Below are positions 37,327-56,209 of a stretch of DNA of 64,000 bases, one piece after another. Position 1 is the stretch's first letter; each line of letters starts with the position of its first letter. Both the position numbers and the translations under genes were made by a program. Source of the DNA: Rheinheimera lutimaris (GTDB taxonomy: Bacteria; Pseudomonadota; Gammaproteobacteria; Enterobacterales; Alteromonadaceae); assembly GCF_013283795.1 (NCBI RefSeq), contig NZ_JABSOD010000011.1, positions 1-64,000 on the forward strand, written 5' to 3'. The notes beneath the pieces were generated by a model that searched no databases, was not told where the DNA came from, and was given only the letters and a program-made list of their open reading frames with translations.

Positions 37327-38667
37327 CTAAACCGGTTTACTGTTACGCTTCTTTTTTATATCCGCATTGTTGCCATGCACCAATTCAGGTGGCAGGGTAA
37401 AGGAGAAACTGCTGCCTTTGCCAGGCTCACTGAAGATCATCAGCCGGCTGTTATGCCGCGACAGCACATGTTTAACAATAGCCAGACCCAGCCCGGTGCC
37501 ACCGGTATTACGGGCGCGGGCTTCGTCTACACGGTAAAAGCGCTCGGTTAAGCGTTTTACATGCTGTGGCGCTATGCCCGGACCGTTATCATTGACAGAA
37601 AATACTGCTTTTAAGTGTTGCCGCTGCCAACTGACATAAATATCACCGCCATTTTGCGTGTACTTAATGGCGTTGATCACCAGGTTTGAAAAAGCACTGC
37701 GCAGCTCTTCGGTTACTCCGGTGACAGTCAACTGCGGGTCGATATCGAACACCAGCTTATGCTGCTTATCGCGGTTAACGGTTTGCGCCTCCTGCTCCAG
37801 TTGCGCCAGCATAGCCGGTACGTCCACCTCATCGTCAAACTGCACCCGCGCTGAGGCTTCAATACGCGATAATGTCAGCAGTTGCTGCACCAGCGCATCC
37901 ATCCGTTTGGTTTGGTCCAGCATTACATTGTGGGCTTTTTTCCACATGGCTTTATCCGGCAAGTGTTCGTCGTCCATCACTTCCAGGTAACCCTGCAGTA
38001 CAGTAAGCGGAGTGCGCAGCTCGTGCGAGACGTTGGCGACAAAGTCTTTGCGAATTTGCTCTAACTGCTTTAACTGGGTAATGTCGCGTACAATCAGCAA
38101 ATACTGCTCTACGCCATACGCCATAATATTAAACTCCAGCGTAAGCTGATCGTTTACCGGCGAGGGCAGCTCTATCGGCAGCTCAAATTTAGCTGTTTTA
38201 AGATACTGCAGGAAATCAGGATGACGGATCAGGTTATCCAGCCGCTGCCCTTCATCGCCCGGCCAGTGCAGCCCCACCAAAATTTGCGCCAGCTTGTTGC
38301 TCCAGATAATGCTCCAGTCGCGGTGCATTACCACTACCGCTTCAGGCAGGGCTTCTGCGCCGTCACGGAAACGCCGCACTACGTTGCGCAGTTCGCGCCT
38401 TTTACGCCGGTCACGCCGCTGTAAATAGTAAATACCTTCGAATAAGTGGCCCCATATACCTTCACTGATTGGCGGCGATAACTTACGGTCACGCCACAGC
38501 CATTTGTCCATTAAAAACAAATGATGGTAATGCCATAGCAACAGCGCAATAGTGAATATCAGCAGTGCCAGCAGCAAGCTGTTCGAGATCAGGCCAACCA
38601 GAGCAATAAAACAGTAAAAAAGGAAGAGTCTGGTATACACCTTCCTTTTTGATAACAGCTGACGCAT
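37327..38667 (-). CDS. phoR: phosphate regulon sensor kinase PhoR
   Basis: Inner-membrane histidine kinase of 446 residues, the E. coli PhoR layout: a hydrophobic N-terminal pair of helices (about 13-45) with almost no periplasmic loop, a PAS domain (about 100-195), HisKA with phospho-acceptor His215 in FVANVSHELRTPL, and a HATPase domain with VINAIKYTQNG, NGPGIAP and GGTGLGLAIVKHV. It reads phosphate status through Pst and PhoU and phosphorylates PhoB. It follows phoB by 17 bp. Confidence 0.96.
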   Translation of the reverse strand: MRQLLSKRKVYTRLFLFYCFIALVGLISNSLLLALLIFTIALLLWHYHHLFLMDKWLWRDRKLSPPISEGIWGHLFEGIYYLQRRDRRKRRELRNVVRRFRDGAEALPEAVVVMHRDWSIIWSNKLAQILVGLHWPGDEGQRLDNLIRHPDFLQYLKTAKFELPIELPSPVNDQLTLEFNIMAYGVEQYLLIVRDITQLKQLEQIRKDFVANVSHELRTPLTVLQGYLEVMDDEHLPDKAMWKKAHNVMLDQTKRMDALVQQLLTLSRIEASARVQFDDEVDVPAMLAQLEQEAQTVNRDKQHKLVFDIDPQLTVTGVTEELRSAFSNLVINAIKYTQNGGDIYVSWQRQHLKAVFSVNDNGPGIAPQHVKRLTERFYRVDEARARNTGGTGLGLAIVKHVLSRHNSRLMIFSEPGKGSSFSFTLPPELVHGNNADIKKKRNSKPV

Positions 38668-38684
38668 AGCGGCGCTTGATAACC

Positions 38685-39371
38685 TTACTTGGCAGAGAAA
38701 CGGTAGCCGGAGCCCCGCACAGTTTGTACTAATCTATCATGGCCGGCGATAGAAATCGCCTTGCGTAAACGGCGGATATGCACATCAACAGTACGGTCTT
38801 CCACATACACATTAGTGCCCCATACGTGGTCGAGTAACTGCTCGCGGCTGTACACCCGCTCCGGGTGGGTCATAAAGAAATGCAGTAAACGAAATTCAGT
38901 TGGCCCCATGTCCAGCGCCTGCTCCTCTGCCATAACACGGTGCGACACCGGGTCCAGTTTTAAGCCCTGCACTTCGATAACTTCATCCAGGCTGGTCGGC
39001 GCTACGCGACGGATCACCGCTTTAATGCGTGCCATCAGCTCTTTCGGTGAAAACGGCTTGGTAACATAGTCGTCGGCGCCAACTTCCAGCCCGCGTACTT
39101 TGTCTTCTTCCTCGCCACGGGCGGTGATCATAATGATCGGAATATTGCGGGTCAGCTCATGTTGCTTCATTTTTTTAGCGATCTGAATGCCGCTGCCGCC
39201 GGGCAACATCCAATCCAGCAGCACTAAATCCGGGTAGGGCTCTACCAGGGCATTAATAGCTGAATCATAATCTTCAGCTGTCGTCGCCTGATAACCATTT
39301 TGTTCCAGTACAAAACACAACATATCACGGATCGGGGCTTCATCTTCCACCACCAGGATCTTTCTTGCCAT
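38685..39371 (-). CDS. phoB: phosphate regulon response regulator PhoB
   Basis: OmpR-family response regulator of 228 residues, nearly identical in motif content to E. coli PhoB. Receiver domain with phospho-acceptor Asp53 in [11 protein letters not shown] and KPFSPKEL; winged helix with [25 protein letters not shown] and [14 protein letters not shown]. Phosphorylated PhoB binds 11-bp-periodic boxes like those found across this window. The ATG at 39371 gives [13 protein letters not shown]; an upstream GTG adds four residues. A PhoB box upstream suggests autoregulation. Confidence 0.97.
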
Positions 39372-39455
39372 TGTTATCACCACATTAAATAGCGGCCCCA
39401 GGCCGTATTGGTTAACTGTTTACTTTTATTAACATTAACAGTATCACTGCAAATT

Positions 39456-39473
39456 ATGACATTTTTATGAAAA
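39456..39473 (-). promoter_or_regulatory. PhoB box upstream of phoB
   Basis: On the minus strand TTTTCATAAAAATGTCAT: half-sites TTTTCAT and ATGTCAT on an 11-bp period, ending 84 bp before the phoB start. Confidence 0.7.
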
Positions 39474-39549
39474 TATCATTTAGCAGGGCGATAAAACATG
39501 GAAATGCGCCCTAAATTTCTGCTGCGCGAAGGAAAGTCGCGTTAAAATA

Positions 39550-39576
39550 AAACCCCGGCTTTTAAGGCCGGGGTTT
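39550..39576 (-). terminator. intrinsic terminator after the TonB-dependent receptor
   Basis: AAACCCCGGC and GCCGGGGTTT form a 10-bp GC-rich stem; on the minus strand it is followed by TATTTTAA. It lies between the receptor stop and the phoB promoter region. Confidence 0.8.
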
Positions 39577-39611
39577 GTAGTTACTAAGGCTGGAGCCAAC
39601 CCTGAGTATAT

Positions 39612-42287
39612 TTAAAAATCATACTTAAAACTTAGCTGGAAGGTAGTACCCACAGTACGACTTCGTACCGTTACACCATCCTGGCTAACTTGCTGGTCTT
39701 CACCCAACAAGTTGCGCACCCGCAACTTAATCGTGCTGTTAAAGTCCAGATAGTACGAATACACCATATCTAATGAATGGAAGGGTTGCTCATAAGCATC
39801 TTCACGTCCATTAATACCGGATGCTATGATCCGCTCACCAAACACATTATATATCAGTGACGCACTATGATCGCCATTTGCCGAGTCATAACCCAGCTGG
39901 AAGTTGGTTACGTACTTAGAGTGGCCGTTCATGCGTTTGCTGGTGTTGGTTAAACTACCCGCGTCAGAAGCGGCGATTTCCACTTCAGAATCACTTAAGG
40001 TAATGTTACCGGATGTAAAGAAGCCATCTATAGCCCAACTCAGGTCATACAACCATTCAGCTTCAAGACCATACAATTCGGCTTGCGTACCATTGGTAAA
40101 ACCAGCGGTATAGCTGGAATCGCCAACCCGCAGTATGGTTTCAATGGGGTTAGTAATATCTTTGTAGAACAAAGATAACGCCAGGTTGTTACCCATTTCG
40201 CCATAAAGCTCATACCGCAAGTCGTAGTTCTTCAGGCTACTGGACACCAATTGAGTATTACCCGTAGTACGGATATCAGTCAGAGGGTCAAAGTAACCTA
40301 CCGGCACCACTTCACGTAAATCCGGCCTTACGACTGTTTCGCCGTAGCCAAACCGTACCTGATAGTCATCACCGCCGATATAGGTAAAGCTTAACGCCGG
40401 GAACAAGTCATCAGTATCGATGGTTCTGGCCTTAATATTGTCAGGATTGAAGAAAACATCCTGATCTTCAGGCGTAAAAATCAGGCTTGAGGTTTCAAGT
40501 GCAACTTGCTTAAAGGCTTCATAGCGTAAACCGCCGCTTACCCGCCAGGTGTTATCAAAAATAACATCAAAGGCGCCGTAGGCCGCATCGGTTTTCTGGG
40601 CTGCTAAGTAGTCGTCAGCTTCAGGTGCATCCGGTTCGTTAAACACCGCCAGCAGGCTTTGCTCAGCAATAAAGCTATCGTTCAGGTAGGATGGCAACTG
40701 TAATAAATCGGCTTCATTAGCTGTTACACTAATGGCTGAACCGCTGTTATTTACAAAGAAGCTCGACGTGGTGTAGTAGCGGGCCCTGTCGATAAAGTCC
40801 CAGCCACCTTTGAGTTCAATTTCAAAGCGTCCTGCTGTAATGGGCAGAGTAATATTTCCGCCCCAGTTTTTCATATGATCGTCCATGTCGACGTAATCAT
40901 ACTCAACCTGTCCATTACCACCATTGACACTGGTATTCAGGTAATTGCTATCAGCATCATACCGGTTACTGAAGTTAAAAGTAGCTTGCAGCGGGATATC
41001 CGTCGTGGCTTCTGACTGAGTATAGTGCCAGTCTACGCCCACACCCATGTAGTCCAGAAAAGTATGCTGACCGCGGAACTGATCTACCTCCAGTTTGCGC
41101 TCTTCATAGGTAAAGCTCTGCGAATAGTCTGCGACACCATCAGCAGCAATGGTGATGTTTTGTGACGGGTTTTGTGAAATTGAAATTTCAGACTCGTCTT
41201 CATTATCTTCAATATAAATTTTGGTATAGCTGACATTGTGCGTGTCCAGCCGGTAGCCCACTGTGAACAACCCGTTAAGGCGCTCATTCTCCGTGGTTAC
41301 CTGCGAATCCACCATACTGTCAAAGCAGCTGACGGCGACATCGTCTGCAGTTTCCAGCGACTGTGAGCAATTTTCAGTTAAATTGGCACTGACCACAGCA
41401 TTGCGACGGTCGGTATAATTCCATTTATTATCATAAGCTACTGACGCTAAAAAGCCGACAGTACCGCCCAGCCATTTTTCGTCAACACTGTTACCTATAT
41501 AAGCTTGTACAGAGTAATTTGGGTTCGGCGATTCCTCTTTGAGCGACATATTGCGCGGCAGAGATTTTAACAAACCGTCATTAATGGCTGTGGCTTTCCC
41601 GGCAGCAGTACCTGATTCGTTAGTAACCAGACCGTCGCGTTCAATGATATTGCGTAATGAAAAATCACCACGGTAATGTACTATGGCATCGCGCAATGCT
41701 GAAGGTGTACCGCTGTGGTTACCCTCATAAGTAAAACCATCAGAATTATTCGAGTCGGCTTCCACCCCCAGCTGAATTCCGGCAGTAAATTCAGTTGGCA
41801 GTGACTTGGTGCGGATATCTACATTACCGCCACCGAATGCTGCCGGCATATTCGGAGAAAATGCCTTTTGCACCGACAGGCTCTCAATTACGCTGGATGG
41901 AAAAATATCCAGCGGAATAACATTACGGGTTAAATCCGGACTTGGGATGCTGGCACCATTTAGCCTGGCACTGGAGTAGCGCTCACCCAGACCACGTACA
42001 TAAATAAATTTACCATCTACCAGAGTAAGCCCGGTTACCCGCCGCAGTGCGGCTGCAGCATCTGAGTCTCCGGTACGGGAAATTTGCTCAGCACCAAGAA
42101 TATCGGCAACAAACGCCTGGTTTTTACGTTCTTCAATGACCGCAGTGGCAGTACCTTGCAAACGTGTACCTGTGGCAACAACCTCTTCAATGGTGGTATC
42201 TTCCTGTGACTGGGCCAACACAGCGCCGGACAACAGACAAGCCCCCACGGCCATTGAAATTCTATTCATTCTGAATCGAATCATCAT
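39612..42287 (-). CDS. TonB-dependent receptor
   Basis: Outer-membrane receptor of 891 residues with a signal peptide (cleavage near VLAQ), a plug domain (GAEQISRTGDSDAAAALRRVTGLTL, YVRGLGERYSSARLNG) and a long beta-barrel ending in a phenylalanine (QLSFKYDF). An IEEVVATG segment follows the signal peptide. Such receptors import scarce ligands using TonB energy. It lies 66 bp after a beta-rich lipoprotein gene and next to a complete TonB system and phoBR. I infer that it takes up a phosphorus-containing ligand under phosphate starvation, but the substrate is unknown. Confidence 0.93.
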   Translation of the reverse strand: MMIRFRMNRISMAVGACLLSGAVLAQSQEDTTIEEVVATGTRLQGTATAVIEERKNQAFVADILGAEQISRTGDSDAAAALRRVTGLTLVDGKFIYVRGLGERYSSARLNGASIPSPDLTRNVIPLDIFPSSVIESLSVQKAFSPNMPAAFGGGNVDIRTKSLPTEFTAGIQLGVEADSNNSDGFTYEGNHSGTPSALRDAIVHYRGDFSLRNIIERDGLVTNESGTAAGKATAINDGLLKSLPRNMSLKEESPNPNYSVQAYIGNSVDEKWLGGTVGFLASVAYDNKWNYTDRRNAVVSANLTENCSQSLETADDVAVSCFDSMVDSQVTTENERLNGLFTVGYRLDTHNVSYTKIYIEDNEDESEISISQNPSQNITIAADGVADYSQSFTYEERKLEVDQFRGQHTFLDYMGVGVDWHYTQSEATTDIPLQATFNFSNRYDADSNYLNTSVNGGNGQVEYDYVDMDDHMKNWGGNITLPITAGRFEIELKGGWDFIDRARYYTTSSFFVNNSGSAISVTANEADLLQLPSYLNDSFIAEQSLLAVFNEPDAPEADDYLAAQKTDAAYGAFDVIFDNTWRVSGGLRYEAFKQVALETSSLIFTPEDQDVFFNPDNIKARTIDTDDLFPALSFTYIGGDDYQVRFGYGETVVRPDLREVVPVGYFDPLTDIRTTGNTQLVSSSLKNYDLRYELYGEMGNNLALSLFYKDITNPIETILRVGDSSYTAGFTNGTQAELYGLEAEWLYDLSWAIDGFFTSGNITLSDSEVEIAASDAGSLTNTSKRMNGHSKYVTNFQLGYDSANGDHSASLIYNVFGERIIASGINGREDAYEQPFHSLDMVYSYYLDFNSTIKLRVRNLLGEDQQVSQDGVTVRSRTVGTTFQLSFKYDF

Positions 42288-42310
42288 TTTTTTCCCACAC
42301 TTTAATGGAA

Positions 42311-42336
42311 AAATAGGCGCCACCAAGCGCCTATTT
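42311..42336 (-). terminator. hairpin between lipoprotein and receptor genes
   Basis: AAATAGGCGC and GCGCCTATTT form a perfect 10-bp stem with a six-base loop; on the minus strand it is followed by TTCC after a run of T. It resembles an intrinsic terminator placed within an operon, so it may be a partial terminator or a processing signal that sets the lipoprotein/receptor ratio. Confidence 0.6.
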
Positions 42337-42353
42337 ATCTCTGGTCAAATTGG

Positions 42354-43934
42354 TTATTCGTCGTTTGCGTTATCAAACGCGGCTTTGGCCCACTTGTACC
42401 AATCTGAAGAAGTGTCGCTGGGTGACACCGCACCGATAAAGTCTGTTGCTTCAAAGAAGCTGTCAACAGTTGTCATATCCGTTGGTGTAATGGTCACATC
42501 AGCAGAGGTTGAAAAACCATTGTTTGCCAGTACGGTGTCAGAACCGTTTACCACTTCACTCACGCCATCATTAGTAAACCATCCGGTAACAGTGGTACTG
42601 CCACTGGCAGTTGCAACAGCCTCTTTACCAACCTCGGCCAGCAAGGCACAGGCAGCAACAGACGTTTTAACTGCTGTACGGTCTGTTACGATTTCGTCGG
42701 CAGCGTCACCAGAATAGTTAACGCACCAAGACTGCGTACCTGAAGTCTGCTTCAACACCATGTTGTAGAACGTCGCGTTGATAAAATCGTCTAACTTCAT
42801 AGCAATGGAAGGGTCACCGTCGCGGGCCGACAATTCATCAGTAGTGATCACTGTAACGTTAGCAATGTGCGGGGCAGACGCCGGTGCCTCTGCAGTTGAA
42901 GAGCCTTTACGACCATCGGCTTCGAAACCACCGTTACCCATGTTCAGCGTTTCGCCTGCTGCGTTTACAACAGTGCCGTGTTTAATTAACAGATACTGAA
43001 CCTTACCCTGCCAACCCGCGTCGATATCCAGGCTATCGTCCTGGGTATCAGTAACTACGACGTGTTTCAGGTTAACTGCACCACCAAATAATTCGACACC
43101 ATCGTCGTACCCGGCATAAATACTTATGTAGTCGATTTCAGTACCAGAACCTACTGAGTTTAAAAACAGCGAGTTCAGGTCGTTACCAACGTCAGCACCA
43201 GCCGGTAGACCGCCAGCATAGTCAATTTTAACGAACCGCAGCGTACCGCTGTCGTCTTCATTGTTGTTACCACCGTAGAAAGAAGATGCCCCTTCACTCT
43301 CGGCATTACAGCTGCCGGCAGCACGTTCAGCATCCGAACATTGATCAGTAATACCAAAACCATTGATAATGACACCGCCCCAATCTTGCGGAGAAGGACC
43401 GGCACCTACAGAGTCAAGTGCCTCTATAGTGTTGGCAGAAGTAAAGGTAATAGGCTTGGCCAGAGTACCAACTGCTTCGATATTCGCGCCGCGGTTAATC
43501 TGTACCCGCGATGCAGGATTATCAAAAACGACAGTAGCGCCGGCTTCAACAGTCAGCGTAGGGCCGTCTGCTTCGATAGTGCAACCTTGTGTGGTATTAC
43601 AGTCCTGGCCAACCGACAGTGTACTACTGAAGTAATGCACAATGTCTGCCTCTAACGTCACATCGGTGGTCAGCGGCTTAGCTGCGCTGACGAAGTTAGC
43701 AGTGTAAGAACAAATGTTGTTACTGCTGTCAAATGTACCCTGGACAGTATCGCTGCCTGATTCATAAGAGCCGCAAGGATTCTCGTCACCGCCGTTGTCT
43801 CCGCCATTTGTTGGTGGATTAGTGACAGTACTGTTGTCGTTAACTGTTGGGGTGATATTGATATCTCCGCCACAACCGACTAATACCAAAGCCAGGGCAA
43901 CTGCTGATACCTTAAATATGCTTTTGAGTTCCAT
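42354..43934 (-). CDS. large beta-rich lipoprotein partnered with the TonB-dependent receptor
   Basis: Lipoprotein of 526 residues with lipobox VLVGC at about residues 17-21, a low-complexity Asn/Gly/Thr linker (to about residue 52), then a repetitive beta-rich body typical of right-handed beta-helix or passenger-like surface proteins (LTVEAGATVVFDNPASRVQI, GGVIINGFGI, LKHVVVTDTQDDSLDI). Several cysteine pairs are present. No enzyme motif is recognised. It shares an operon with the receptor and has a PhoB box 60 bp upstream. A surface-exposed ligand-capturing partner, analogous to SusD beside SusC, is my inference. Confidence 0.75.
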   Translation of the reverse strand: MELKSIFKVSAVALALVLVGCGGDINITPTVNDNSTVTNPPTNGGDNGGDENPCGSYESGSDTVQGTFDSSNNICSYTANFVSAAKPLTTDVTLEADIVHYFSSTLSVGQDCNTTQGCTIEADGPTLTVEAGATVVFDNPASRVQINRGANIEAVGTLAKPITFTSANTIEALDSVGAGPSPQDWGGVIINGFGITDQCSDAERAAGSCNAESEGASSFYGGNNNEDDSGTLRFVKIDYAGGLPAGADVGNDLNSLFLNSVGSGTEIDYISIYAGYDDGVELFGGAVNLKHVVVTDTQDDSLDIDAGWQGKVQYLLIKHGTVVNAAGETLNMGNGGFEADGRKGSSTAEAPASAPHIANVTVITTDELSARDGDPSIAMKLDDFINATFYNMVLKQTSGTQSWCVNYSGDAADEIVTDRTAVKTSVAACALLAEVGKEAVATASGSTTVTGWFTNDGVSEVVNGSDTVLANNGFSTSADVTITPTDMTTVDSFFEATDFIGAVSPSDTSSDWYKWAKAAFDNANDE

Positions 43935-43993
43935 TGAGGTCTCCGAAATTTTAATTGTGAGTTAGTTAGCCGCACAAAGACTAGCGAGACCGG

Positions 43994-44011
43994 GTGACAC
44001 TTTTATTACAG
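43994..44011 (-). promoter_or_regulatory. PhoB box upstream of the lipoprotein-receptor operon
   Basis: On the minus strand CTGTAATAAAAGTGTCAC: half-sites CTGTAAT and GTGTCAC around AAAA, a near-consensus 18-bp PhoB box 60 bp before the lipoprotein start. Confidence 0.8.
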
Positions 44012-44083: not shown

Positions 44084-44101
44084 CCGTAATAAAACTGTCA
44101 T
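44084..44101 (+). promoter_or_regulatory. PhoB box upstream of the DUF3450-TonB operon
   Basis: CCGTAATAAAACTGTCAT: half-sites CCGTAAT and CTGTCAT around AAAA. A further CTGTGAC half-site lies at 44116-44122, 21 bp downstream. The box ends 77 bp before the DUF3450 start. Confidence 0.8.
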
Positions 44102-44177: not shown

Positions 44178-44948
44178 ATGAGGCGTTTAAAACTACTTCC
44201 GCTGGCCGTGCTTGCCTCCTCTTTGGCAGCAGCGATGCCATCCGCAGCACAAGAAGACAAGTATTTGGAACCTGCGGTGAAAGAGGCAGCCGAAATAAAT
44301 AAATCAGCTGCCGCTTCGCAGGAAAAAATCAATACAATAACTGACCAACTCGATACTAAGTTGCAGCGGTTTAAAGCTACCAATAAAGAAATTGACGGCT
44401 TGGTGGTTTATAACGCTCAGTTACGCAAGCAACTTAACAACCAGCTGCAAGAAGTCGCTGATTTGAATAAAGCGATTGATGAAGTAAGCGTAATTGAACG
44501 CCAGATCACGCCGTTAATGCTGCGTATGATTGAAGGTTTAAAACAGTTTGTCTCGCTGGACGTCCCTTTTTTACCGGAAGAACGCAGTAAACGCTTAGCC
44601 GAACTGGAAAGTCTGATGGAGCGTGCAGATGTGGCCCCTTCCGAGAAGTTCCGCCGTGTAATGGAAGCCTACCAAATTGAAATGGACTATGGCCGTACCT
44701 TGGAAGCATACAGCGGCCTGCATAACGTTGACGGCCAGGAACGCGATGTAGACTTTTTACGCGTTGGCCGGACAGCGCTAATTTATCAAACCCGTGATGC
44801 CAGTCAGCAAGGCCTTTGGAACAAACAAAGCCGCCAGTGGGAAGTACTGCCTGCCAGCTATCGCACACAAGTGACAAAAGGCCTGCGTATGGCGAAGAAG
44901 CAGCTTGCACCTGATTTGCTATCGCTGCCAGTAGCCCTTACCGACTAA
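44178..44948 (+). CDS. DUF3450 family periplasmic protein
   Basis: Exported protein of 256 residues with a signal peptide (cleavage near PSAAQ) and a long coiled coil (about 35-110), then a helical C-terminal part. Motifs AAASQEKINTITDQLD, DVPFLPEERSKRLAEL, AYQIEMDYGRTLEAY and FLRVGRTALIYQT mark DUF3450. These proteins are encoded at the head of TtpC-ExbB-ExbD-TonB-TPR clusters in Vibrio, Shewanella and relatives and probably assist the TonB complex in the periplasm. First gene of a six-gene unit with a PhoB box upstream. Confidence 0.9.
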   Translation: MRRLKLLPLAVLASSLAAAMPSAAQEDKYLEPAVKEAAEINKSAAASQEKINTITDQLDTKLQRFKATNKEIDGLVVYNAQLRKQLNNQLQEVADLNKAIDEVSVIERQITPLMLRMIEGLKQFVSLDVPFLPEERSKRLAELESLMERADVAPSEKFRRVMEAYQIEMDYGRTLEAYSGLHNVDGQERDVDFLRVGRTALIYQTRDASQQGLWNKQSRQWEVLPASYRTQVTKGLRMAKKQLAPDLLSLPVALTD

Positions 44949-44961
44949 GAGAGTAGAAGTG

Positions 44962-46335: not shown

Positions 46336-46340
46336 TTGCC

Positions 46341-48030: not shown

Positions 48031-48041
48031 GGTGGAATCAC

Positions 48042-49352
48042 ATGTTTGTAAAAAAAACAATCAGTCAAGTGGTCGTGTTTACCCTGTTGGCAACAAGTAG
48101 CTATCTGCTACCCGTTATCAGCCCGCTGGGCCAGGTACAAGCACAACAGCAACAAGACGAACGCAAAACCCGCCGCACACCGGCTTTACGCGCTAAAGTG
48201 TATGAGCAGTTGGCCAGGGCACAAGCGCTGGCCGATAGCGGGAAAACAAGCGAAGCCCTGGCGGCCTTAGACAACGTTAAGGATAAAGCCAGCTCGATGA
48301 ATAGCTATGAGTTGGCCATGTTGTACAACTTCTACGGCTTTACCTATTACAATACTGAACAATATGGCAACGCCATTACCGCCTTTGAAAAGGTGGTAGA
48401 ACAGCAGCCTATTCCTGAATCGTTCGAGCTTTCGACGTTGTTTAGCTTAGCTCAGCTGCATATGATGCAGGGCAATTATGCTAAGACGCTGAGCGTTCTG
48501 GAGCGCTGGGAAGCATTGAATACTGGTGAGATCCCTGCCAATAATCACCTTATTAAAGCTCAGGCCATGTACCAGCAAAAGGATTATCAGCGTGCTGCCG
48601 GCTTTATCAATCAAGCAGTTGAGATGGTTGAAAAACAAGGCAAGGTGCCAGATGAAAACTGGTATGTGCTGCAACGCGCAGTGTATTTTGAGCTTAAACA
48701 ACCTGAGAAAGTAAAAGACGTACTGGTTAAGATGGTTCGGCACTATAACGCCGGCCAATACTGGATACAACTGGCTGGCATGTACGGTGAATTGGGCGAA
48801 GAGAAAAAGCAACTGGCAATTCTTGAAGCAGCATACCAGCAGGGTTATATCACCTCTGCTTCCGACGTATTTAACCTGGCTCAGTTGTATTACTACCATC
48901 AGGTTCCGGTAAAAGGAGCGCGTGTGATGGAAGAGGCAATGCAGGCAGGCGTACTTGAGCGCAACCTGCGTAACCTGAAATTTACCGCAAGCTGCTGGTC
49001 GCTGGCAAAACATGACGACAAGGCTATTCCCCTGTTAATTTCAGCCGCAAGCTTGTCTGATGATGGTGAACTTGAAGCCCAACTTGGCCAAATGTACCTG
49101 AATATGGAAGCGTACGATAAAGCCATTGCAGCGGCCACAGCGGCCTTGCAAAAAGGTGGGCTTCGTAACCAGGGCATGTCACATTTGGTATTAGGGATGG
49201 CCTATTTCAATAAGCAGCGCTTTAATGACGCACTAGTCGAATTAGCCAAGGCCGAGAAGTTTGACAACACTAAGCGTATAGCTCTGCAATGGGAAAAATA
49301 CGTGAAAGCAGAAAAAGTTAACTTTGAAATACTACAAACCGAACTGTCTTAA
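48042..49352 (+). CDS. TPR protein of the TonB cluster
   Basis: Exported protein of 436 residues with a signal peptide and at least six tetratricopeptide-like helical pairs (ALAALDNVKDKASSMNSYELAML, NFYGFTYYNTEQYGNAITAFEK, GMAYFNKQRFNDALVELAKAE). TPR proteins close TtpC-ExbB-ExbD-TonB operons in related bacteria and are thought to scaffold the complex in the periplasm. I use the ATG at 48042 (AGGTGG upstream) rather than a TTG that overlaps tonB. Confidence 0.87.
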   Translation: MFVKKTISQVVVFTLLATSSYLLPVISPLGQVQAQQQQDERKTRRTPALRAKVYEQLARAQALADSGKTSEALAALDNVKDKASSMNSYELAMLYNFYGFTYYNTEQYGNAITAFEKVVEQQPIPESFELSTLFSLAQLHMMQGNYAKTLSVLERWEALNTGEIPANNHLIKAQAMYQQKDYQRAAGFINQAVEMVEKQGKVPDENWYVLQRAVYFELKQPEKVKDVLVKMVRHYNAGQYWIQLAGMYGELGEEKKQLAILEAAYQQGYITSASDVFNLAQLYYYHQVPVKGARVMEEAMQAGVLERNLRNLKFTASCWSLAKHDDKAIPLLISAASLSDDGELEAQLGQMYLNMEAYDKAIAAATAALQKGGLRNQGMSHLVLGMAYFNKQRFNDALVELAKAEKFDNTKRIALQWEKYVKAEKVNFEILQTELS

Positions 49353-49444: not shown

Positions 49445-50347
49445 TTAAAACTTATGCTTGATACCAACCGCCAGATAATCGCGATCCGGTGTTGGCGTAT
49501 CCAGGTTAAAACTGCTGTACCAGGCAAATAAAGTAGTATCTTTACCCGCTTTATAATCTAACCCTAAGCTGATTGCTTTATCATCTTCCAGCGTTTGGTA
49601 CTGGGCTTTCAGCTCAGTTTTACCCAGCGGATAAGCACCACTTAACAACCAACCATCCTGTTCCAACCCGGTGATAATATCTTCCTGGCGCTGCAACATA
49701 GCACCCAGTTTAACGCCGGCCACTTTAGTTTGCCCGTTTACACGAACACTGTCATAACCGTTTACCTCTGAGTCAAACGCAACAGAGAGAAAAATATTGC
49801 TGTCCTTGAGGTTGTCATCGCCGTAAAACAGTGCGGCAGAAACCGCGTCTTCAGCATCTACCGAGTCTTCCAGAATATAGGTCAGCTGCGCGCCAAAGCC
49901 GTTATAGCTTGGCGTAAAATAACTGATGGAGTTATTCGCCCGTACTTCAGCTTCCCATAAACCACCCACATCGGCCTCAAAATCATTAAACTGATCAATC
50001 TTGCCTTGTGACATTTTAGTCGCTGTATCATGCCGGCCTAAACGCACCTCACCAAAGTTACCTGCCAGGCCAATATACTGATTACGCGCAGTAACATTGC
50101 TGCTACTGCTGTCAGACACATTTACGCCCCATTCTAATTGGTACACCAGGGTCAGACCGTCTTCCAACGCATAGTCACCTTTCAAACCAAAACGGGAGCT
50201 GTTACTTTTTAACTCCGAGAAACGCCCCTCTCCCTCATCGCCGGACTGCGCGGACACATTCAGCTGGCCGTAAAGCTTTACCGGCTCAGCCTGCACTGTT
50301 GCAACACCAGCCATCGCCATCACTAACATTACCGTTGTTTTTTTCAT
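49445..50347 (-). CDS. general porin, PhoB-controlled
   Basis: Outer-membrane porin of 300 residues. Signal peptide to about residue 20 (VQAEP), a typical first strand VKLYGQLNVSAQSGDE, the porin signature YIGLAGNFGEVRLGRHDT, and a C-terminal phenylalanine (YLAVGIKHKF) as required for BAM insertion. It belongs to the Gram-negative porin family rather than to the OprP type. The ATG at 50347 opens the signal peptide. The array of PhoB half-sites upstream argues for strong induction at low phosphate, like PhoE; the anion preference is inference. Confidence 0.9.
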   Translation of the reverse strand: MKKTTVMLVMAMAGVATVQAEPVKLYGQLNVSAQSGDEGEGRFSELKSNSSRFGLKGDYALEDGLTLVYQLEWGVNVSDSSSSNVTARNQYIGLAGNFGEVRLGRHDTATKMSQGKIDQFNDFEADVGGLWEAEVRANNSISYFTPSYNGFGAQLTYILEDSVDAEDAVSAALFYGDDNLKDSNIFLSVAFDSEVNGYDSVRVNGQTKVAGVKLGAMLQRQEDIITGLEQDGWLLSGAYPLGKTELKAQYQTLEDDKAISLGLDYKAGKDTTLFAWYSSFNLDTPTPDRDYLAVGIKHKF

Positions 50348-50417
50348 TTTTCGCACCTGAGTTATTACCGGCCCGTTACTACTGCTAACAGTCCGTGATT
50401 TATGACAACGCCATATT

Positions 50418-50487
50418 ATGACCATTTCATGACAGTAAAATGACAATAAGGCAAATTTATGACTTTGAAATGATACTTTTATGACCT
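50418..50487 (-). promoter_or_regulatory. array of six PhoB half-sites before the porin
   Basis: ATGA-type half-sites (plus strand) start at 50418, 50429 and 50440, and again at 50459, 50470 and 50481: two runs of three with exact 11-bp spacing and a 19-bp step between runs. On the minus strand the downstream run reads TTGTCAT, CTGTCAT, TGGTCAT. A seventh, off-phase copy lies at 50402. The array ends about 70 bp before the porin start. Confidence 0.85.
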
Positions 50488-50567
50488 TAGCAGAAATATA
50501 CAGCTTGCTTAGCAAAAGTATCTGTTAAATTAGCAGGATAGCCAGTAATTAGCCGATAAAATGCATA

Positions 50568-50593: not shown

Positions 50594-50608
50594 GCAAAAA
50601 TGCAGTGA

Positions 50609-51334
50609 TTAACGACGCTTTTTATCAACAACCTGCTGTAACTCTTCATCGCTAAGATGCGAAACATTGCGGCCTAAGCTGAGGAAAATAGCATGTTCGC
50701 AGATATTACGACTGTGATCGCCTACCCGCTCCAGCGCTTTAGCAACCTGAGAAATCTGCATACTGACGCTGATTTGCTTTGCATCGTCCATCATGCTGCT
50801 GAGACTGTGCTGTAAAATACGGGCATAATCATCATCAATGGCTTTATCTTCACGTAATACCGCCAATGCCGCTTGGGCGTCTATTTGCTCAAAAGCAGCA
50901 AGGGCACGCTGCAACATTTGCAGCACCTTTTGCCCCATTTCTGCCAGGGCGTCCAGTTGCGAAGTTGCCGGCCGGCTGTCCGCCTCTTCCTTTAACAAGG
51001 CTTTGGCAATGCGCTTGGCTAAATCGCCAATACGTTCAACATCATTAATACTTTTCAGCACGGCCAATACCAAGCGTAAATCACTGGCTGCCGGCTGGCG
51101 CCGCGCCAATATATCCAGGCAGTGCTCGTCAATATCAACTTCAAAGTTGTTCACGCGCCGGTCAAAGTCTTTTACCTGTTGCGCCAGTGCAACATCAGCC
51201 GAGGTAAAGGCTGTTAACGCATCGGTAAGCTGCTGCTGCGCCAACTGTGCCATTTGCATTAAGCGTTCTACGGCTTGCTGTAACTCTTCATCATAGGCCT
51301 GTGAATAATGGCCGCCGATTTTGTTATTTGGCAT
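50609..51334 (-). CDS. phoU: PhoU-family protein (copy 2), last gene of the pst operon
   Basis: Protein of 241 residues with two three-helix PhoU repeats (RRQPAASDLRLVLAVLKSINDVERIGDLAKRI, VAKALERVGDHSRNICEHAIF). It lies 55 bp after pstB, the classical phoU position, yet its N-terminus (PNNKIGGHYSQAYDEEL) diverges more from E. coli PhoU than copy 1 does. Presumably it couples Pst activity to PhoR. The two copies may divide roles between Pst and Pit, or between conditions. Confidence 0.92.
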   Translation of the reverse strand: MPNNKIGGHYSQAYDEELQQAVERLMQMAQLAQQQLTDALTAFTSADVALAQQVKDFDRRVNNFEVDIDEHCLDILARRQPAASDLRLVLAVLKSINDVERIGDLAKRIAKALLKEEADSRPATSQLDALAEMGQKVLQMLQRALAAFEQIDAQAALAVLREDKAIDDDYARILQHSLSSMMDDAKQISVSMQISQVAKALERVGDHSRNICEHAIFLSLGRNVSHLSDEELQQVVDKKRR

Positions 51335-51389
51335 AATGCCGCTCTCCTGAATTAGTTCTCACCACAGCCCTTTAATCACTTAATCGCTG

Positions 51390-52160
51390 TTAGCCGTAAC
51401 GCCCGGTAATATAGTCTTCGGTCCGCTTTTGCTGCGGGTTGGTAAATACATCATTGGTATTGCCGATTTCAATAAGATTACCCAGATGGAAAAAGGCCGT
51501 GCGATCAGACACCCTGGCGGCTTGTTGCATATTGTGCGTAACAATAACGATAGTGAAGTTTTGCTTCAGTTCGTCAATCAGCTCTTCAATAATAGAAGTG
51601 GCGATAGGATCCAGTGCTGAGCACGGTTCATCCATCAGGATCACTTCCGGGCTTACCGCTATGCTGCGGGCAATGCACAAACGTTGCTGCTGGCCACCGG
51701 ATAAACCGGTGCCGGGTTGGTCCAGCCGATCTTTTACTTCATTCCATAAACCGGCGCGGCGCAAGCTGGATTCAACGATATCGTCCAGATCGGCTTTGCG
51801 CTCGGCCAGGCCATGCAATTTCGGCCCGTAAGCAATATTTTCGTAAATCGACTTCGGAAACGGGTTCGGCTTTTGGAACACCATACCTACCTGAGCCCGC
51901 AACTGCACCACATCTAATGCCGGCTCGTGAATATCACGGCCATCCAGCAAAATACTACCGGTTACCCGACAATGCTCTATGGTGTCGTTCATCCGGTTCA
52001 TACAGCGTAAAAAGGTTGACTTACCGCAGCCAGACGGGCCGATAAAGGAGATCACCTCGTTCTGATACACATCCATGCTGATGCCATGCAGCGCCTGATT
52101 GTCGCCGTAGAACACCTTTACATCTGTAGCACTGATTTTTACCGGAGCTGAATTACTCAT
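51390..52160 (-). CDS. pstB: phosphate ABC transporter ATP-binding protein PstB
   Basis: ATPase subunit of 256 residues. Walker [21 protein letters not shown]-loop [21 protein letters not shown], signature [14 protein letters not shown] and Walker [14 protein letters not shown] are all intact. The NxMND context after Walker A is specific to PstB. It powers high-affinity Pi import and takes part in PhoR signalling. Confidence 0.97.
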
Positions 52161-52219
52161 TTGTTTATCCGTTACTTTAAAATTAACTCTGTTAAGCGCA
52201 GCGTAACTAACCAGCTATG

Positions 52220-53590
52220 TTACCAGCGCTTTTCATATTTTTTCCGCAGCCAAATGGCCAGACCATTTAAGCTAATCATCATCAGCAACAACACAATAAT
52301 GGCGGCTGAAGTGCGGGCCTCAAAGAAATTACGCAGCTCATTGCCCTGCCACAGGTAAATTTGTACCGGTAACGCACTGGCCTGTTCAAACGGTGAAGCC
52401 GGTATAGAAGCAACAAAAGACTTCATACCAATTAATAACAGCGGCGCCGTTTCACCCAATGCCTGGGCCACACCTAAAATAGCCCCTGTTAAAATACCCG
52501 GAATAGCCAGTGGTAACACATGATGGAAAATAGCCTGCATTTTCGATGCGCCCAGCCCAAGTGCCGCCTGGCGAATAGACGGCGGTATTGCTTTAAGTGT
52601 GGAGCGGGTAGCAATAATTACCGTGGGTAATGTCATCAGTGATAACACGAGACCGCCGACAATCGGTGCCGACATTGGCAGGTTAAACCAGCCGATTAAC
52701 ACCGAAGCCCCCAATAAACCAAACACTATTGAAGGCACCGCCGCCAGGTTGTTAATGTTTACCTCCACCAGGTCGGTGATTCTATTGCGCGGCGCAAACT
52801 CTTCCAAATAAATAGCAGCGGCTACGCCCATCGGCACGGCCAGTAAAATAACCACCAGCATCATATAGAACGAGCCCATAAAAGCACCGGCCAAACCAGC
52901 AGATGCCAAAGAGCTGCGCGAGTCCGGGTTCATAAACAGTGCCAGACTGAAACGGTTTTGGATAACGCCATCAGCAGCAAGCTTATCTACCCATTCACGC
53001 ATTTTCGGGCTAAGCTGCTGCTGTGCATCCGGCAGACTGCGGTCAATATTGCCTTTTAACCAAACATCGATATTGGCATCTGTTAACAGATGCAGCGTGC
53101 GGGTTTGGCCAATAATTGACGGATCTGCCACTACCATATCACGCAGCGCAAAGCGCTCGCCGGAGGTCACCACCCGCGCCAGGTCGCGCCGGTGCTTGCC
53201 GGCATCCGGCAGCACTTTTTGCAAGCTGTCGGTGATCAGCCGGTTAAAGTTAACAAAGCCAATTTCGGTTTGCCATTCAATATGCCGCTGGCGAAAATCG
53301 TTATCGGACTCGTCGACACGCTGCTGTGGCATCGGCGGAATTTTAATGATCGCCGGATCAAAATAAATCTCCAGCGTAATAGCCGATTGCCAAAATGCCG
53401 GTAGCCCTTTGGAAAAAATATTGATAAACAACACCGCTACTAAACCAAGACTGATTAGCACCGCGGTTAAGCCCAACCGGCGAAACAAATTTTCTGTCCG
53501 ATGGCGTTTAGCAAGCGACGCAATGACTTTTTGCTGCACCTGGCTCGGAGCCGCTACAGCTTTAATCGGGTTCTCTGCAATAATGGTCAT
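52220..53590 (-). CDS. pstA: phosphate ABC transporter permease PstA (long form)
   Basis: Permease of 456 residues, about 150 longer than E. coli PstA. The extra length is a periplasmic insert after the first membrane helix (about residues 70-220), followed by the normal five-helix permease core with AAIYLEEFAPRNRITDLVEVNI and the coupling segment RQAALGLGASKMQAIFHHVLPLAIPGI. The N-terminus is also extended. Long PstA/PstC pairs are known in Shewanella and Vibrio relatives. It starts 3 bp after pstC. Confidence 0.95.
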   Translation of the reverse strand: MTIIAENPIKAVAAPSQVQQKVIASLAKRHRTENLFRRLGLTAVLISLGLVAVLFINIFSKGLPAFWQSAITLEIYFDPAIIKIPPMPQQRVDESDNDFRQRHIEWQTEIGFVNFNRLITDSLQKVLPDAGKHRRDLARVVTSGERFALRDMVVADPSIIGQTRTLHLLTDANIDVWLKGNIDRSLPDAQQQLSPKMREWVDKLAADGVIQNRFSLALFMNPDSRSSLASAGLAGAFMGSFYMMLVVILLAVPMGVAAAIYLEEFAPRNRITDLVEVNINNLAAVPSIVFGLLGASVLIGWFNLPMSAPIVGGLVLSLMTLPTVIIATRSTLKAIPPSIRQAALGLGASKMQAIFHHVLPLAIPGILTGAILGVAQALGETAPLLLIGMKSFVASIPASPFEQASALPVQIYLWQGNELRNFFEARTSAAIIVLLLMMISLNGLAIWLRKKYEKRW

Positions 53591-53593
53591 AAC

Positions 53594-54973
53594 TTACTCG
53601 TATTGTTCACGGTATTTACGCACGATCACCAGTGCCATCACATTGAGCAGCAAGGTAATAACGAACAGCGTTAAGCCCAGCGCAAAGGCAACCAGCGATT
53701 GCGGGCTGGAAAAATCATTGTCACCGGTTAGCTGATTGACGATGGTTACCGTTACAGTGGACACGGCTTCGAACGGGTTAGCAGTTAACGCGGGACTGTT
53801 ACCAGCTGCCAACACCACTATCATGGTTTCGCCAATGGCACGGCTTGCTGCCAGCAACACAGCACCAACAATACCCGGCAATGCTGCCGGCAGCACCACT
53901 TTTAAGATAGTTTCAGACTTGGTTGCACCTAACCCCAGCGAGCCGTCCCGCATAGATTTTGGCACCTGAGTGATAATGTCATCTGATAACGACGAGATAA
54001 ACGGGATAATCATAATGCCCATGACCACGCCGGCTGTTAATGCCGAAGTGGCATTGATATCCAACCCGATAGCCGCACCTAAATCGCGCAAAAACGGGCC
54101 TACCGTTACCAACGCAAAGAAACCGTACACTATGGTAGGAATACCGGCCAACACTTCAATCACAGGCTTGGCGGTATTGCGCAGCTTCATAGGCGCATAC
54201 TCCGCCAGATAAATTGCCACCATCAGCCCCAGCGGAATAGCCACCAGCATAGCGATACCGGCGATCATTGCGGTACCGGCTAACAACGGCACCAAACCGA
54301 AGCTTCCCTGCTCTCCCACGCCAACAGTAGAAAAGCGCGGATTCCAGGTAGTACCAAAGAAAAACTCTGTCGGCGGAATATAACTGAAGAACTTCATCGT
54401 TTCGCCGACCATCGACAGCACTATGCCGATGGTAGTCAAAATAGCCACGGTAGAACATAGCACCAGCAGGGCTTTAACAACACGCTCAACCTGATGCCGG
54501 GCTTTTAACCGTGGCGTAATGCGCAGCAGGCTGTACAACATACCTGCTGCGGCTATTACTGCCATTAATGCTGTAAGTACTAACGCACTGTTGGTTTTAA
54601 GCTGCCGCAAATGCTCAGCAGCGGCCAACTCCCAGGCCTCTGCATCTGCCACCACGCCGAAGTTACCGGCTAAATTACCGATACGCTGCGACATGACACG
54701 GACCTCATCAGCCGTCAAGGTCGCGACATCCACCGGCAATTGTGCCAGCATCATAGAATTAATGACCGCCGGTGCCAGCCACAACCACAACAGCAGAATA
54801 AAAAATGCCGGCAACACAGCCCACAATCCCACCATCATGCCATAGTGATGTGGCCTGGAATGCATGCGCAAATCGGGGTTAACTGTTGCTACTTTGCGGC
54901 TGCGGGTCATTCCGAGTTGGTAGCCCAATGCCAGCAAGATCAGCAGCACGACAATTAACGAAAGGTTACTCAT
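53594..54973 (-). CDS. pstC: phosphate ABC transporter permease PstC (long form)
   Basis: Permease of 459 residues, about 140 longer than E. coli PstC. An additional N-terminal hydrophobic region and soluble segment (about 1-180) precede the core carrying PLLAGTAMIAGIAMLVAIPLG, IYLAEYAPMKLRNTAKPVIEVLAGIPTIVYGFF and the coupling motif RDGSLGLGATKSETILKVVLP. The pstC-pstA gap is 3 bp. A degenerate PhoB box and the pstS terminator lie upstream. Confidence 0.95.
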   Translation of the reverse strand: MSNLSLIVVLLILLALGYQLGMTRSRKVATVNPDLRMHSRPHHYGMMVGLWAVLPAFFILLLWLWLAPAVINSMMLAQLPVDVATLTADEVRVMSQRIGNLAGNFGVVADAEAWELAAAEHLRQLKTNSALVLTALMAVIAAAGMLYSLLRITPRLKARHQVERVVKALLVLCSTVAILTTIGIVLSMVGETMKFFSYIPPTEFFFGTTWNPRFSTVGVGEQGSFGLVPLLAGTAMIAGIAMLVAIPLGLMVAIYLAEYAPMKLRNTAKPVIEVLAGIPTIVYGFFALVTVGPFLRDLGAAIGLDINATSALTAGVVMGIMIIPFISSLSDDIITQVPKSMRDGSLGLGATKSETILKVVLPAALPGIVGAVLLAASRAIGETMIVVLAAGNSPALTANPFEAVSTVTVTIVNQLTGDNDFSSPQSLVAFALGLTLFVITLLLNVMALVIVRKYREQYE

Positions 54974-55035
54974 GGTCGCTCCGTAAACAGCTTACACGTA
55001 ATGCTTAACTAAGGTGCGCAGTGTAAGCGGCTTTT

Positions 55036-55053
55036 ATTTCAGTTTTATGACAT
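55036..55053 (-). promoter_or_regulatory. degenerate PhoB box upstream of pstC
   Basis: On the minus strand ATGTCATAAAACTGAAAT: a good first half-site, AAAA spacer and a weaker second half-site, 62 bp before pstC and downstream of the pstS terminator. It would let pstCAB-phoU have its own promoter. Confidence 0.5.
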
Positions 55054-55066
55054 CCGAAAAGCAAAA

Positions 55067-55091
55067 AAGAGAACCCGTTACAGGTTCTCTT
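55067..55091 (-). terminator. terminator after pstS
   Basis: AAGAGAACC and GGTTCTCTT form a 9-bp stem with a seven-base loop; on the minus strand it is followed by TTTTTGC. It would lower pstCAB expression relative to the abundantly needed binding protein. Confidence 0.85.
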
Positions 55092-55107
55092 AAATGCAGC
55101 AGAGAGA

Positions 55108-56139
55108 TTATAGCGACTTTTTCTGCCGGATGTTTTGCATAATTTCTGCGCGTTCATCGTCAGACAGCGGAATTAAACCAGCGCTTTCCAGCACGCTGCC
55201 AAAGCCTGACATACCTTCGCTGACATGGAACTGAGCATATTCCTGTAACCCGGGAATGACACCGATATGCGCGCCTTTAACATAGATATACAGCGGACGT
55301 GATACCGGATACTCGCCGGAGATAATAGTATCCAGGTTAGGCTCTACACCAGATACGGTAGCTACTTTGATACGGTCACGGTTAGCTTCAAAGAAACTTA
55401 AACCAAATACACCTACCGCGTCTTTTTGCGCTTGCAAACGTGCCAGGGTTTCAGTGTAATCGCCGGCAATTTCTACTACCCGGCCGTCGGTACGCATAGC
55501 GGTACAAAATTTATGCGCAGCATCTTTGTCCATGGCTTTTACTTCGGCCAATGTCTGGCATCCGGGCACCACCACTTTCTCTTCATACACTTCGCGGGTA
55601 CCGTGATTAGAGCCCGGAATCGCCAGCAAAATTTCCTGGTCCGGTAAGGTTTTATCTATTTGATTCCAACGGGTATAAGGGTTAGCAACCATTTTACCGT
55701 TCTGTGCCACTTGTGCTGCCTGCGCCAGGAACACATGCTTCGGCTCTAACTTGAATACTGCAGCATCAACACGTGACGCGAAAACAATGCCGTCATAGCC
55801 GATTTTTACTTCAATAATCTCTTTTACACCATTGGCTTTACAGGCTTCTACTTCATTCGGGCGCATTTTGCGCGATGAATTGGCCACATCAATAGTATTA
55901 GCACCTACGCCCTGACAAAATTGGCGTAAACCGCCTGACGAGCCACCTGAGCCCACTACCGGAGTGCGGAACTGAGCAAAGTTATTGCCAAACTCTTCTG
56001 CAACTACTGCAGAAAACGGCAGCACGGTAGAAGACCCGGCGATTTGGATAGTGTCACGGCTTTGTGCCTGCGCTGTTGCTGATGCGGTTAAAGCGACGGT
56101 TGCCGCCAGTAACAAGCTGGAGAATTTATTCAGTTTCAT
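55108..56139 (-). CDS. pstS: periplasmic phosphate-binding protein PstS
   Basis: Binding protein of 343 residues with a signal peptide (cleavage near AQAQ) and the PstS ligand loops IAGSSTVLPFSAVVAEEF and VGSGGSSGGLRQFCQG, then IDVANSSRKM and GSNHGTREVYEEKV. The SGGS-type loop binds phosphate. This is the longer PstS class common in marine gammaproteobacteria. The ATG at 56139 opens the signal peptide and has a GGGAA ribosome site. A PhoB box lies 53 bp upstream. Confidence 0.96.
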   Translation of the reverse strand: MKLNKFSSLLLAATVALTASATAQAQSRDTIQIAGSSTVLPFSAVVAEEFGNNFAQFRTPVVGSGGSSGGLRQFCQGVGANTIDVANSSRKMRPNEVEACKANGVKEIIEVKIGYDGIVFASRVDAAVFKLEPKHVFLAQAAQVAQNGKMVANPYTRWNQIDKTLPDQEILLAIPGSNHGTREVYEEKVVVPGCQTLAEVKAMDKDAAHKFCTAMRTDGRVVEIAGDYTETLARLQAQKDAVGVFGLSFFEANRDRIKVATVSGVEPNLDTIISGEYPVSRPLYIYVKGAHIGVIPGLQEYAQFHVSEGMSGFGSVLESAGLIPLSDDERAEIMQNIRQKKSL

Positions 56140-56191
56140 ATCATGTTCCCGGTTGTCCGAAGTGTGTATGGTATTAGTTTGCTGCATTTTT

Positions 56192-56209
56192 ATTGCAGTA
56201 ATATGACAG
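56192..56209 (-). promoter_or_regulatory. PhoB box upstream of pstS
   Basis: On the minus strand CTGTCATATTACTGCAAT: a consensus first half-site and a good second half-site on an 11-bp period; a third, weaker ATGCAGC unit follows. Confidence 0.75.

Follow-up and report, generated by a model that had tools for sequence, protein, structure and literature searches.

Here we describe a putative phosphate-starvation block of Rheinheimera lutimaris in which genes for PhoBR and PstSCAB-PhoU flank a TonB-dependent receptor (TBDR), a lipoprotein resembling ElpS of Caulobacter crescentus, and a complete TtpC-type (TonB2-like) TonB motor. The block occupies positions 37327-56187 of the stretch analyzed, the first 64,000 nucleotides of contig NZ_JABSOD010000011.1 (hereafter the window). 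Its likely role is that of an uptake system for phosphate starvation in which the outer-membrane step is energised. Comparison with relatives gives good support to PhoB regulation of the receptor-lipoprotein and motor operons, as predicted from their Pho boxes. By sequence, the motor is a lineage of its own that is usually Pho-boxed and, in the genomes sampled, always occurs with an ElpS-like lipoprotein.

Pho boxes of the divergent operons

Two divergent operons lie 243 bp apart between phoBR and the porin-pst genes. On the minus strand, the lipoprotein gene (42354..43934) comes first in an operon with the receptor gene (39612..42326, Pfam Plug), the open reading frames (ORFs) as called being 27 bp apart. 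For the receptor, an ATG at 42287/42284 is a more probable start than the TTG at 42326. On the plus strand, the six gene kinds of a TtpC-type energy system stand in one run. The operon is headed by a TtpB-like DUF3450 gene (44178..44948, Pfam DUF3450, 298.4 bits), followed by a TtpC-like gene with a C-terminal MotA/TolQ/ExbB domain (44959..46335, Pfam MotA_ExbB and the tree described below), exbB (46341..46859, Pfam MotA_ExbB), exbD (46919..47323, Pfam ExbD), tonB (47377..48030, Pfam TonB_C), and a TtpD-like tetratricopeptide repeat (TPR) gene (48027..49352, Pfam TPR families).

Both strands of the whole window were scanned with a Pho-box matrix made of eight E. coli sites. The top eight matches score 14.1-20.2 and belong to the lipoprotein, DUF3450, phoB, pstC, porin (two), ppk, and pstS genes; five random sequences of the window's dinucleotide make-up gave best scores of 10.3-13.3. 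The two strongest sites are those of the divergent operons, at 43994..44011 (minus strand, score 20.2) for the lipoprotein-receptor operon and at 44084..44101 (plus strand, score 19.3) for the motor operon. The phoB box ranks third (39456..39473, minus strand, 18.2), and a further box lies between pstS and pstC (55036..55053, minus strand, 16.7). The porin has two overlapping boxes, at 50418 and 50429, together covering 50418..50446 on the minus strand (scores 14.8 and 14.3). Single boxes were found for ppk at 26606 (plus strand, 14.5) and for pstS at 56192..56209 (minus strand, 14.1). The ppk box is 51 bp ahead of its ORF, and a box is also present ahead of ppk in Aestuariibacter halophilus (locus L129). 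An 18-base pattern with at most one mismatch occurs at 7 places in the 4.08 Mb genome, 4 of them inside the block, compared with 4 places for a reversed control pattern; around the remaining three matches (L263-L265), no phosphate genes were recognisable by eye.

We also scored 122 sequences, comprising the window, 41 genome stretches, and 80 named loci, at a threshold of at least 12. Boxes at this level precede 58 of 117 lipoprotein genes versus 18 of 960 other genes, a conservative contrast, as some of the boxed genes in that second group are phosphate genes themselves (PstS-like, ppk). They also precede 21/35 DUF3450 genes, 22/22 phoB genes (window included), 5/5 pstS genes, and 6/7 porin genes. 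Genes inside the operons never reach 12 (TBDR 0/117, TtpC 0/39, ExbB 0/35, TonB 0/37), and the Pho boxes are therefore placed at operon starts. In stretches where neither phoB nor pst was flagged, a box is still found ahead of 40/89 lipoprotein genes and 9/22 DUF3450 genes. A second matrix was made of 18 distinct phoB/pstS promoter sites of relatives, picked by the first matrix and with the window left out. At the 99th percentile of other genes, it recovers 47/117 lipoprotein, 20/34 DUF3450, and 0/117 TBDR upstream regions. The scan of the window and the boxes in relatives bear out the original prediction, made from the sequence of the window, that PhoB-box-like sites precede most transcription units of the block.

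A motor lineage that accompanies the lipoprotein

Among 79 genomes of the family, 59 encode a DUF3450 protein of this lineage, at least 50% identical to that of the window, with paralogues at 32-45%. The lipoprotein is present in 62 of the 79 (profile, at least 350 bits). Both are found in 59 genomes, the motor alone in 0, the lipoprotein alone in 3, and neither in 17 (Fisher p 1.4e-14; the p-values given here ignore phylogeny). The lipoprotein profile matches 64/79 genomes at E ≤ 0.001; the partial matches in G282 and G300 (230 and 242 bits) were counted as non-carriers, and counting them as carriers gives a table of 59/0/5/15. At the level of the order, a DUF3450 protein at least 53% identical to that of the window occurs in 20 of 247 genomes, and comparison of the lists by eye places all 20 among the 42 with a lipoprotein match. 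Motor and lipoprotein are at most 10 kb apart in 32/59 family genomes and at most 30 kb apart in 43/59.

The lineage is also set apart by its promoters. A Pho box of at least 12 stands ahead of 48/59 lineage motors (27/30 plus 21/29) versus 0/31 paralogous motors, a test that covers the 31 paralogous motors fetched, the best of which scores 12.0 after rounding. A maximum-likelihood tree of 40 TtpC proteins places 34 of them (from the window and from motors near its lipoprotein relatives) on one side of a branch and six, set apart beforehand, on the other. The branch has support of 87/98 and is present in 82% of bootstrap trees; four of the six outsiders are long-branched and the root is unsure. 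Two of the six, L145 and L147, also sit in loci with a distant lipoprotein relative. In these loci, from a bacterial metagenome-assembled genome (MAG) and a Pseudobacteriovorax MAG, a very divergent motor lies between the lipoprotein relative and a TonB receptor, which are some kb apart.

The R. lutimaris genome (51 contigs, five TonB_C matches in all) contains a second TonB2-type motor on another contig (L074, G000:C12). This motor is downstream of transketolase, GAPDH, PGK, and aldolase genes, and its 20 kb stretch has no Pho-like site of at least 11. The lipoprotein has a single match in the genome and no second copy.

The lipoprotein-receptor pair

The lipoprotein of the window has an LVGC lipobox, the Cys of which is invariant in a 36-row alignment. 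It matches no Pfam or NCBIfam family, SusD families included, and a profile search of PDB sequences returned nothing for the lipoprotein and nothing by sequence for the receptor. The AlphaFold model of the lipoprotein (pLDDT 89.1, pTM 0.88) contains short strands throughout. Foldseek gave weak matches to parallel beta-helix enzymes and tailspikes, with a best E of 2.3e-3 at a query TM of 0.25 and none at or below 0.001. Based on the model, the fold is probably a beta-helix; the Foldseek matches were too weak for a ligand or an activity to be read from it. The invariant residues, many of them acidic (D277, D278, E281, D299, D300, D303, E338, D340), would be compatible with metal binding. The receptor model (pLDDT 86.7, pTM 0.83) is an ordinary TonB barrel, for which the best Foldseek matches are PhuR (E 1.1e-28) and FepA (2.7e-26). 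The 50 matches listed are haem, siderophore, transferrin, and copper receptors at a query TM ≤ 0.57 and 10-14% identity, and no ligand was read from this fold either.

The two genes travel together. Of the 80 named loci, 78 have a related receptor within the stretch, directly adjoining the lipoprotein in 76, and 20 have the motor within it. The lipoprotein domain occurs in two or three copies (~950 or 1390 aa) in 37/40 order-level stretches, compared with one in the window. A phoB gene of at least 60% identity is present in 13/80 named loci; for pstS, pstC, and pstA the count is 6/80 each. The 13 loci with the pair near phoBR are from Alteromonas, Aliiglaciecola, Paraglaciecola, Salinimonas, Ningiella, Glaciecola, Rheinheimera, Arsukibacterium, and two MAGs. 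Co-occurrence with phoBR, which the original prediction had offered as a check, extends to several lineages; most named loci have no phoB of that identity in the stretch. In Porticoccaceae and the alphaproteobacterial Kordiimonas, the pair is near pstSCAB-phoU. Upstream of the lipoprotein in 15 loci is a family whose two tested members are PstS-like.

On the Alteromonas macleodii plasmid pBGP9, the genes run co-directionally as phoB-phoR-PstS-like-2OG oxygenase-lipoprotein-receptor-motor. This island (L266, NZ_OX359244.1 9206-46564) encodes a three-domain lipoprotein; the plasmid is typed as non-mobilizable, and a Tn3-like transposase is encoded a few kb away. Genes of the 2OG-Fe(II) oxygenase family (L038:11572-12405 and L266:9160-9951) precede the lipoprotein gene, in the same orientation, in 8 of the loci scored. 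They have a Pho box in 2 of these 8, and the Pfam assignment comes from L038 alone. Type II secretion system (T2SS) genes N, D, and E come after the pair in Sphingomonas and Indioceanicola, and secretin-family neighbours of the pair recur in 6 loci among those examined. In a Parabacteroides record, genes for a TonB receptor and a lipoprotein relative are neighbours. Within the family genomes, lipoprotein carriage has no association with PhoX (34/62 carriers, 7/17 non-carriers, p 0.41) or with PhoD (45/62 carriers, 12/17 non-carriers, p 1.0), which argues against a role tied to either phosphatase.

Proposed mechanism and alternatives

At low phosphate, PhoR would activate PhoB, as is established for the family. 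PhoB would then act at the divergent region (43935-44177), switching on the lipoprotein-receptor operon in one direction and the DUF3450-TtpC-ExbB-ExbD-TonB-TPR motor in the other. The ElpS-like lipoprotein, which is probably a beta-helix, may reside at the cell surface, where it would capture a phosphorus-bearing ligand or hold the ligand over the receptor. The receptor, as its putative partner, would draw on its own motor to carry the ligand into the periplasm. Periplasmic phosphate, whether arriving as such or released there, would be imported by PstSCAB, and the porin may admit free phosphate. Phosphoesters, nucleic acid, and phytate, suggested as ligands by the original prediction, are guesses.

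For the motor lineage as a whole, which is found in Alteromonadaceae, Colwelliaceae, Pseudoalteromonadaceae, and Pleioneaceae, we lean slightly toward commitment to the PhoB regulon and to ElpS-like pairs. It would then provide a dedicated proton-powered route for phosphorus that parallels the iron TonB systems and moves as a cassette. The earlier claim that a TonB2-type motor is committed to phosphorus here gains partial support, on the side of regulation, from the two best PhoB boxes of the window, the boxes in unlinked relatives, the occurrence of the motor only with the lipoprotein in the genomes sampled, the lack of such boxes in the paralogous motors examined, and the lack of a Fur-like site above chance between the divergent operons. 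The word "here" was too narrow, since the pair resembles ElpS/CC0171 (PMC2996285) and both PhoB-regulated TonB receptors and exbB2-exbD2-tonB4 have been published (PMC11208175, PMC7035377).

Several observations weigh against a PhoB-controlled phosphorus importer of this kind. About half of the lipoprotein upstream regions (59/117) score below 12. Among the alphaproteobacterial lipoprotein promoters L106, L120, L130, L137, and L139, only L139 reaches 12, and no box of at least 10.5 stands ahead of the lipoprotein in Sphingomonas (L267) or Indioceanicola (L268). The pair occurs without the motor in 3/62 family carriers and 22/42 order carriers (one of the 42 a marginal match); the motor is therefore not obligatory. 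In 16/59 genomes, the motor is either separated from the lipoprotein by more than 30 kb or located on another contig. The stretches span 12-21 kb, so that more distant pho/pst linkage is possible, and L129, which was counted as unlinked, has a pstS match at the end of its stretch (tblastn). Kinship among the genomes adds to this, as does overlap between the two collections, in which L049/L141 and L050/L118 seem to be identical contigs.

The phosphate link could be regulatory only, with PhoB controlling uptake of a peptide, glycan, metal, or vitamin for starved cells. The Shewanella oneidensis receptor SO_1822 is assigned to peptide uptake (PMC3658271), which likewise counts against phosphorus as the cargo. 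A non-phosphorus cargo would also fit a pair without PhoX or PhoD association and a lipoprotein model weakly like polysaccharide-acting beta-helix proteins. We nevertheless regard it as unlikely, given that physical linkage to phoBR, pst, and PstS-like genes recurs across several lineages. In addition, the window receptor has no match above 45 bits in an Aeromonas stretch whose DUF3450 is 46% identical, SO_1822 itself, presumably a member of a TonB2-type cluster, being outside that comparison. Alternatively, the lipoprotein may mainly be an extracellular helper of the sort proposed for ElpS, promoting or itself carrying phosphatase activity outside the cell, with receptor and motor serving to display, release, or sense it instead of importing a ligand. 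The surface anchoring and release of ElpS, its effect on supernatant alkaline phosphatase, and the co-conservation of cc0171 (PMC2996285) would agree with such a role, as would the conserved acidic residues of the lipoprotein. However, the window pair has no T2SS beside it, secretin-family neighbours are limited to 6 loci, and the receptor is kept, often with a Pho-boxed motor. The lipoprotein also has no known phosphatase domain or fold in Pfam, NCBIfam, or Foldseek, and we find a helper role quite improbable.

It is also conceivable that the module merely landed beside phoBR-pst in a variable slot and is unrelated to phosphate. The slot does vary, holding a GH16 gene, a TBDR, and a second porin in one congener (L250), and the module looks horizontally acquired. 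Yet the module has its own Pho boxes, in family member G297 (L252) and in other unlinked loci as well, whereas the congener's GH16 gene has none. Because the boxes travel with the module, we set hitch-hiking aside as very improbable. We assign an equally slight chance to an ordinary iron-uptake TonB2 system under Fur, Fur-dependent induction being one of the outcomes that the original prediction had named as its refutation. The best-known role of TtpB/TtpC/TtpD systems is siderophore uptake in Vibrio (PMC6957404), and the solved receptors closest to that of the window are haem and siderophore transporters (Foldseek). Between the divergent operons, however, there is no Fur-like site above chance (best match 10/19, shuffled mean 11.3); Pho boxes stand there instead, and the genome has the second TonB2-type motor described above. 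A phosphate-starvation uptake system remains our preferred reading of the block.

Origin of the module

The module was probably acquired horizontally into a slot of the pho locus that hosts varying outer-membrane cargo. Two congeners have neither the lipoprotein nor the motor. In G260 (L250), the slot between porin and phoB contains genes for a GH16 protein, a different TonB receptor, and a second porin (Pfam), and G298 (L251) has receptor and porin matches at the corresponding places. Both have boxes of at least 11 near the porins, phoB, and pstC and no box of at least 11 ahead of the GH16 position in the slot. In L250, and similarly in L251, the second slot porin is Pho-boxed and a second pstS-like gene precedes pstS. 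In G297 (L252), the same eight genes are co-directional on a contig other than that of phoBR, at 80-96% identity versus 76% for PhoB, and the module keeps its own Pho boxes at this distance from phoBR. We infer that an inversion turned the motor opposite to the pair. In Rheinheimera hassiensis, the same slot encodes a lipoprotein with two domains and a receptor of 38% identity; in R. hassiensis locus L114, PhoB and PstB are 97% and 96% identical to those of the window, the best among the 80 named loci.

Other genes of the block

All of the genes that the original prediction had named (phoBR, TBDR, lipoprotein, the complete DUF3450-TtpC-ExbB-ExbD-TonB-TPR operon, porin, and pstSCAB-phoU) are present in the block at the places given there, as determined from ORFs, Pfam, and NCBIfam. 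Each has a Pfam match except the lipoprotein. Those outside the two divergent operons are on the minus strand. The sensor kinase gene phoR (37327..38667) matches Pfam PhoR, HisKA, and HATPase_c, and the response regulator gene phoB (38685..39383) matches TIGR02154 at 373.9 bits (cut-off 296.2). On the other side of the motor are the porin (49445..50515, Pfam Porin_4), phoU (50609..51334, Pfam PhoU), pstB (51390..52160, Pfam ABC_tran), pstA (52220..53590, Pfam DUF3333 and BPD_transp_1), pstC (53594..54973, Pfam DUF3708 and BPD_transp_1), and pstS (55108..56187, Pfam PBP_like_2). The porin probably starts at the ATG at 50347 rather than at the TTG at 50515, because its Pho boxes fall within the longer ORF. 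The polyphosphate kinase gene ppk (26657..28771, plus strand, Pfam PP_kinase domains) is outside the block.

Significance and comparison with known systems

TonB motors have mostly been studied for iron and vitamins. If our reading holds, marine bacteria spend proton motive force on bringing phosphorus across the outer membrane, and the widespread, poorly understood ElpS/CC0171 kind of pair gains a testable function. On the broader reading of the motor lineage given above, ElpS-like pairs would serve Pseudomonadota and Bacteroidota as a general phosphorus importer whose capture subunit is the beta-helix lipoprotein. Cultivable hosts can be named, such as A. macleodii BGP9, which carries the island on plasmid pBGP9.

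The window pair of lipoprotein and TBDR resembles ElpS/CC0171, in which the lipoprotein gene is likewise directly beside a TonB-receptor gene. ElpS (CC0170) of C. crescentus is a phosphate-starvation lipoprotein that is surface-anchored and released and that raises alkaline phosphatase activity in the supernatant; cc0171 is co-conserved with elpS and constitutive, and T2SS genes belong to the elpS-cc0171 order (PMC2996285). Relatives of the window proteins in Sphingomonas and Indioceanicola share this reported order of lipoprotein, receptor, and T2SS genes N, D, and E. The window lipoprotein is 32% identical over 368 columns (E 5e-36) to the Sphingomonas lipoprotein, which is encoded in an elpS-type gene order, and the receptors are 25% identical. 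Unlike ElpS-CC0171, the window pair has no adjacent T2SS and instead has a PhoB-boxed six-gene TonB motor. Unlike the constitutive cc0171, the window receptor seems to share one predicted Pho-boxed operon with its lipoprotein.

The motor has the same six gene kinds as TonB2 and TonB3 of Vibrio vulnificus (TtpB-TtpC-ExbB-ExbD-TonB-TtpD). TonB3, which is ~35% similar to TonB2, has an operon headed by a receptor gene, does not serve iron, and is reported to be active in serum or glycerol medium (PMC6957404). The window motor differs from these Vibrio systems by its Pho boxes, by the lack of a Fur-like site above chance, and by the ElpS-like lipoprotein that goes with it; Fur control is a trait of Vibrio TonB2 rather than of the gene set. 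In Vibrio parahaemolyticus, peuRS-peuA-TonB2 likewise groups two-component genes with those for a TonB2-type motor and a receptor, which there is an enterobactin receptor (PMC4141801). A run of this shape in Vibrio campbellii (L270, 1729-11001) comprises two-component genes, a TonB receptor gene, and a DUF3450-TtpC motor; its DUF3450 and TtpC are 33-38% identical to those of the window.

Pseudomonas aeruginosa exbB2-exbD2-tonB4 is an uncharacterised member of a sigma-VreI/PhoB regulon beside a putative porin gene (PMC7035377). It shares with the window a nearby porin gene and a TonB motor under phosphate-starvation control, which in the window is predicted. It differs in using an extracytoplasmic function sigma factor together with PhoB, in adjoining the Hxc T2SS and a two-partner secretion pair, and in that no DUF3450, TtpC, or TPR gene is named in the available text. 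PusCD of Flavobacterium is a phosphate-regulated outer-membrane transporter with a lipoprotein partner of the SusCD type (PMC8812569). Its partner is SusD-like, whereas the window lipoprotein has no SusD match in Pfam or NCBIfam and has a beta-rich model instead. Pho-regulated TonB receptors are reported in Caulobacter (PMC11208175), and phytate is named among the substrates of marine TonB-dependent transporters (PMC3400609). Among the matches listed from open-licence literature, including PMC3400609 and PMC12872454 in the parts available, neither a PhoB-controlled TtpC-type motor nor this island was described. As far as these searches show, what is new in the present system is its TtpC-type motor lineage, usually Pho-boxed and, in the genomes sampled, always found with an ElpS-like lipoprotein.

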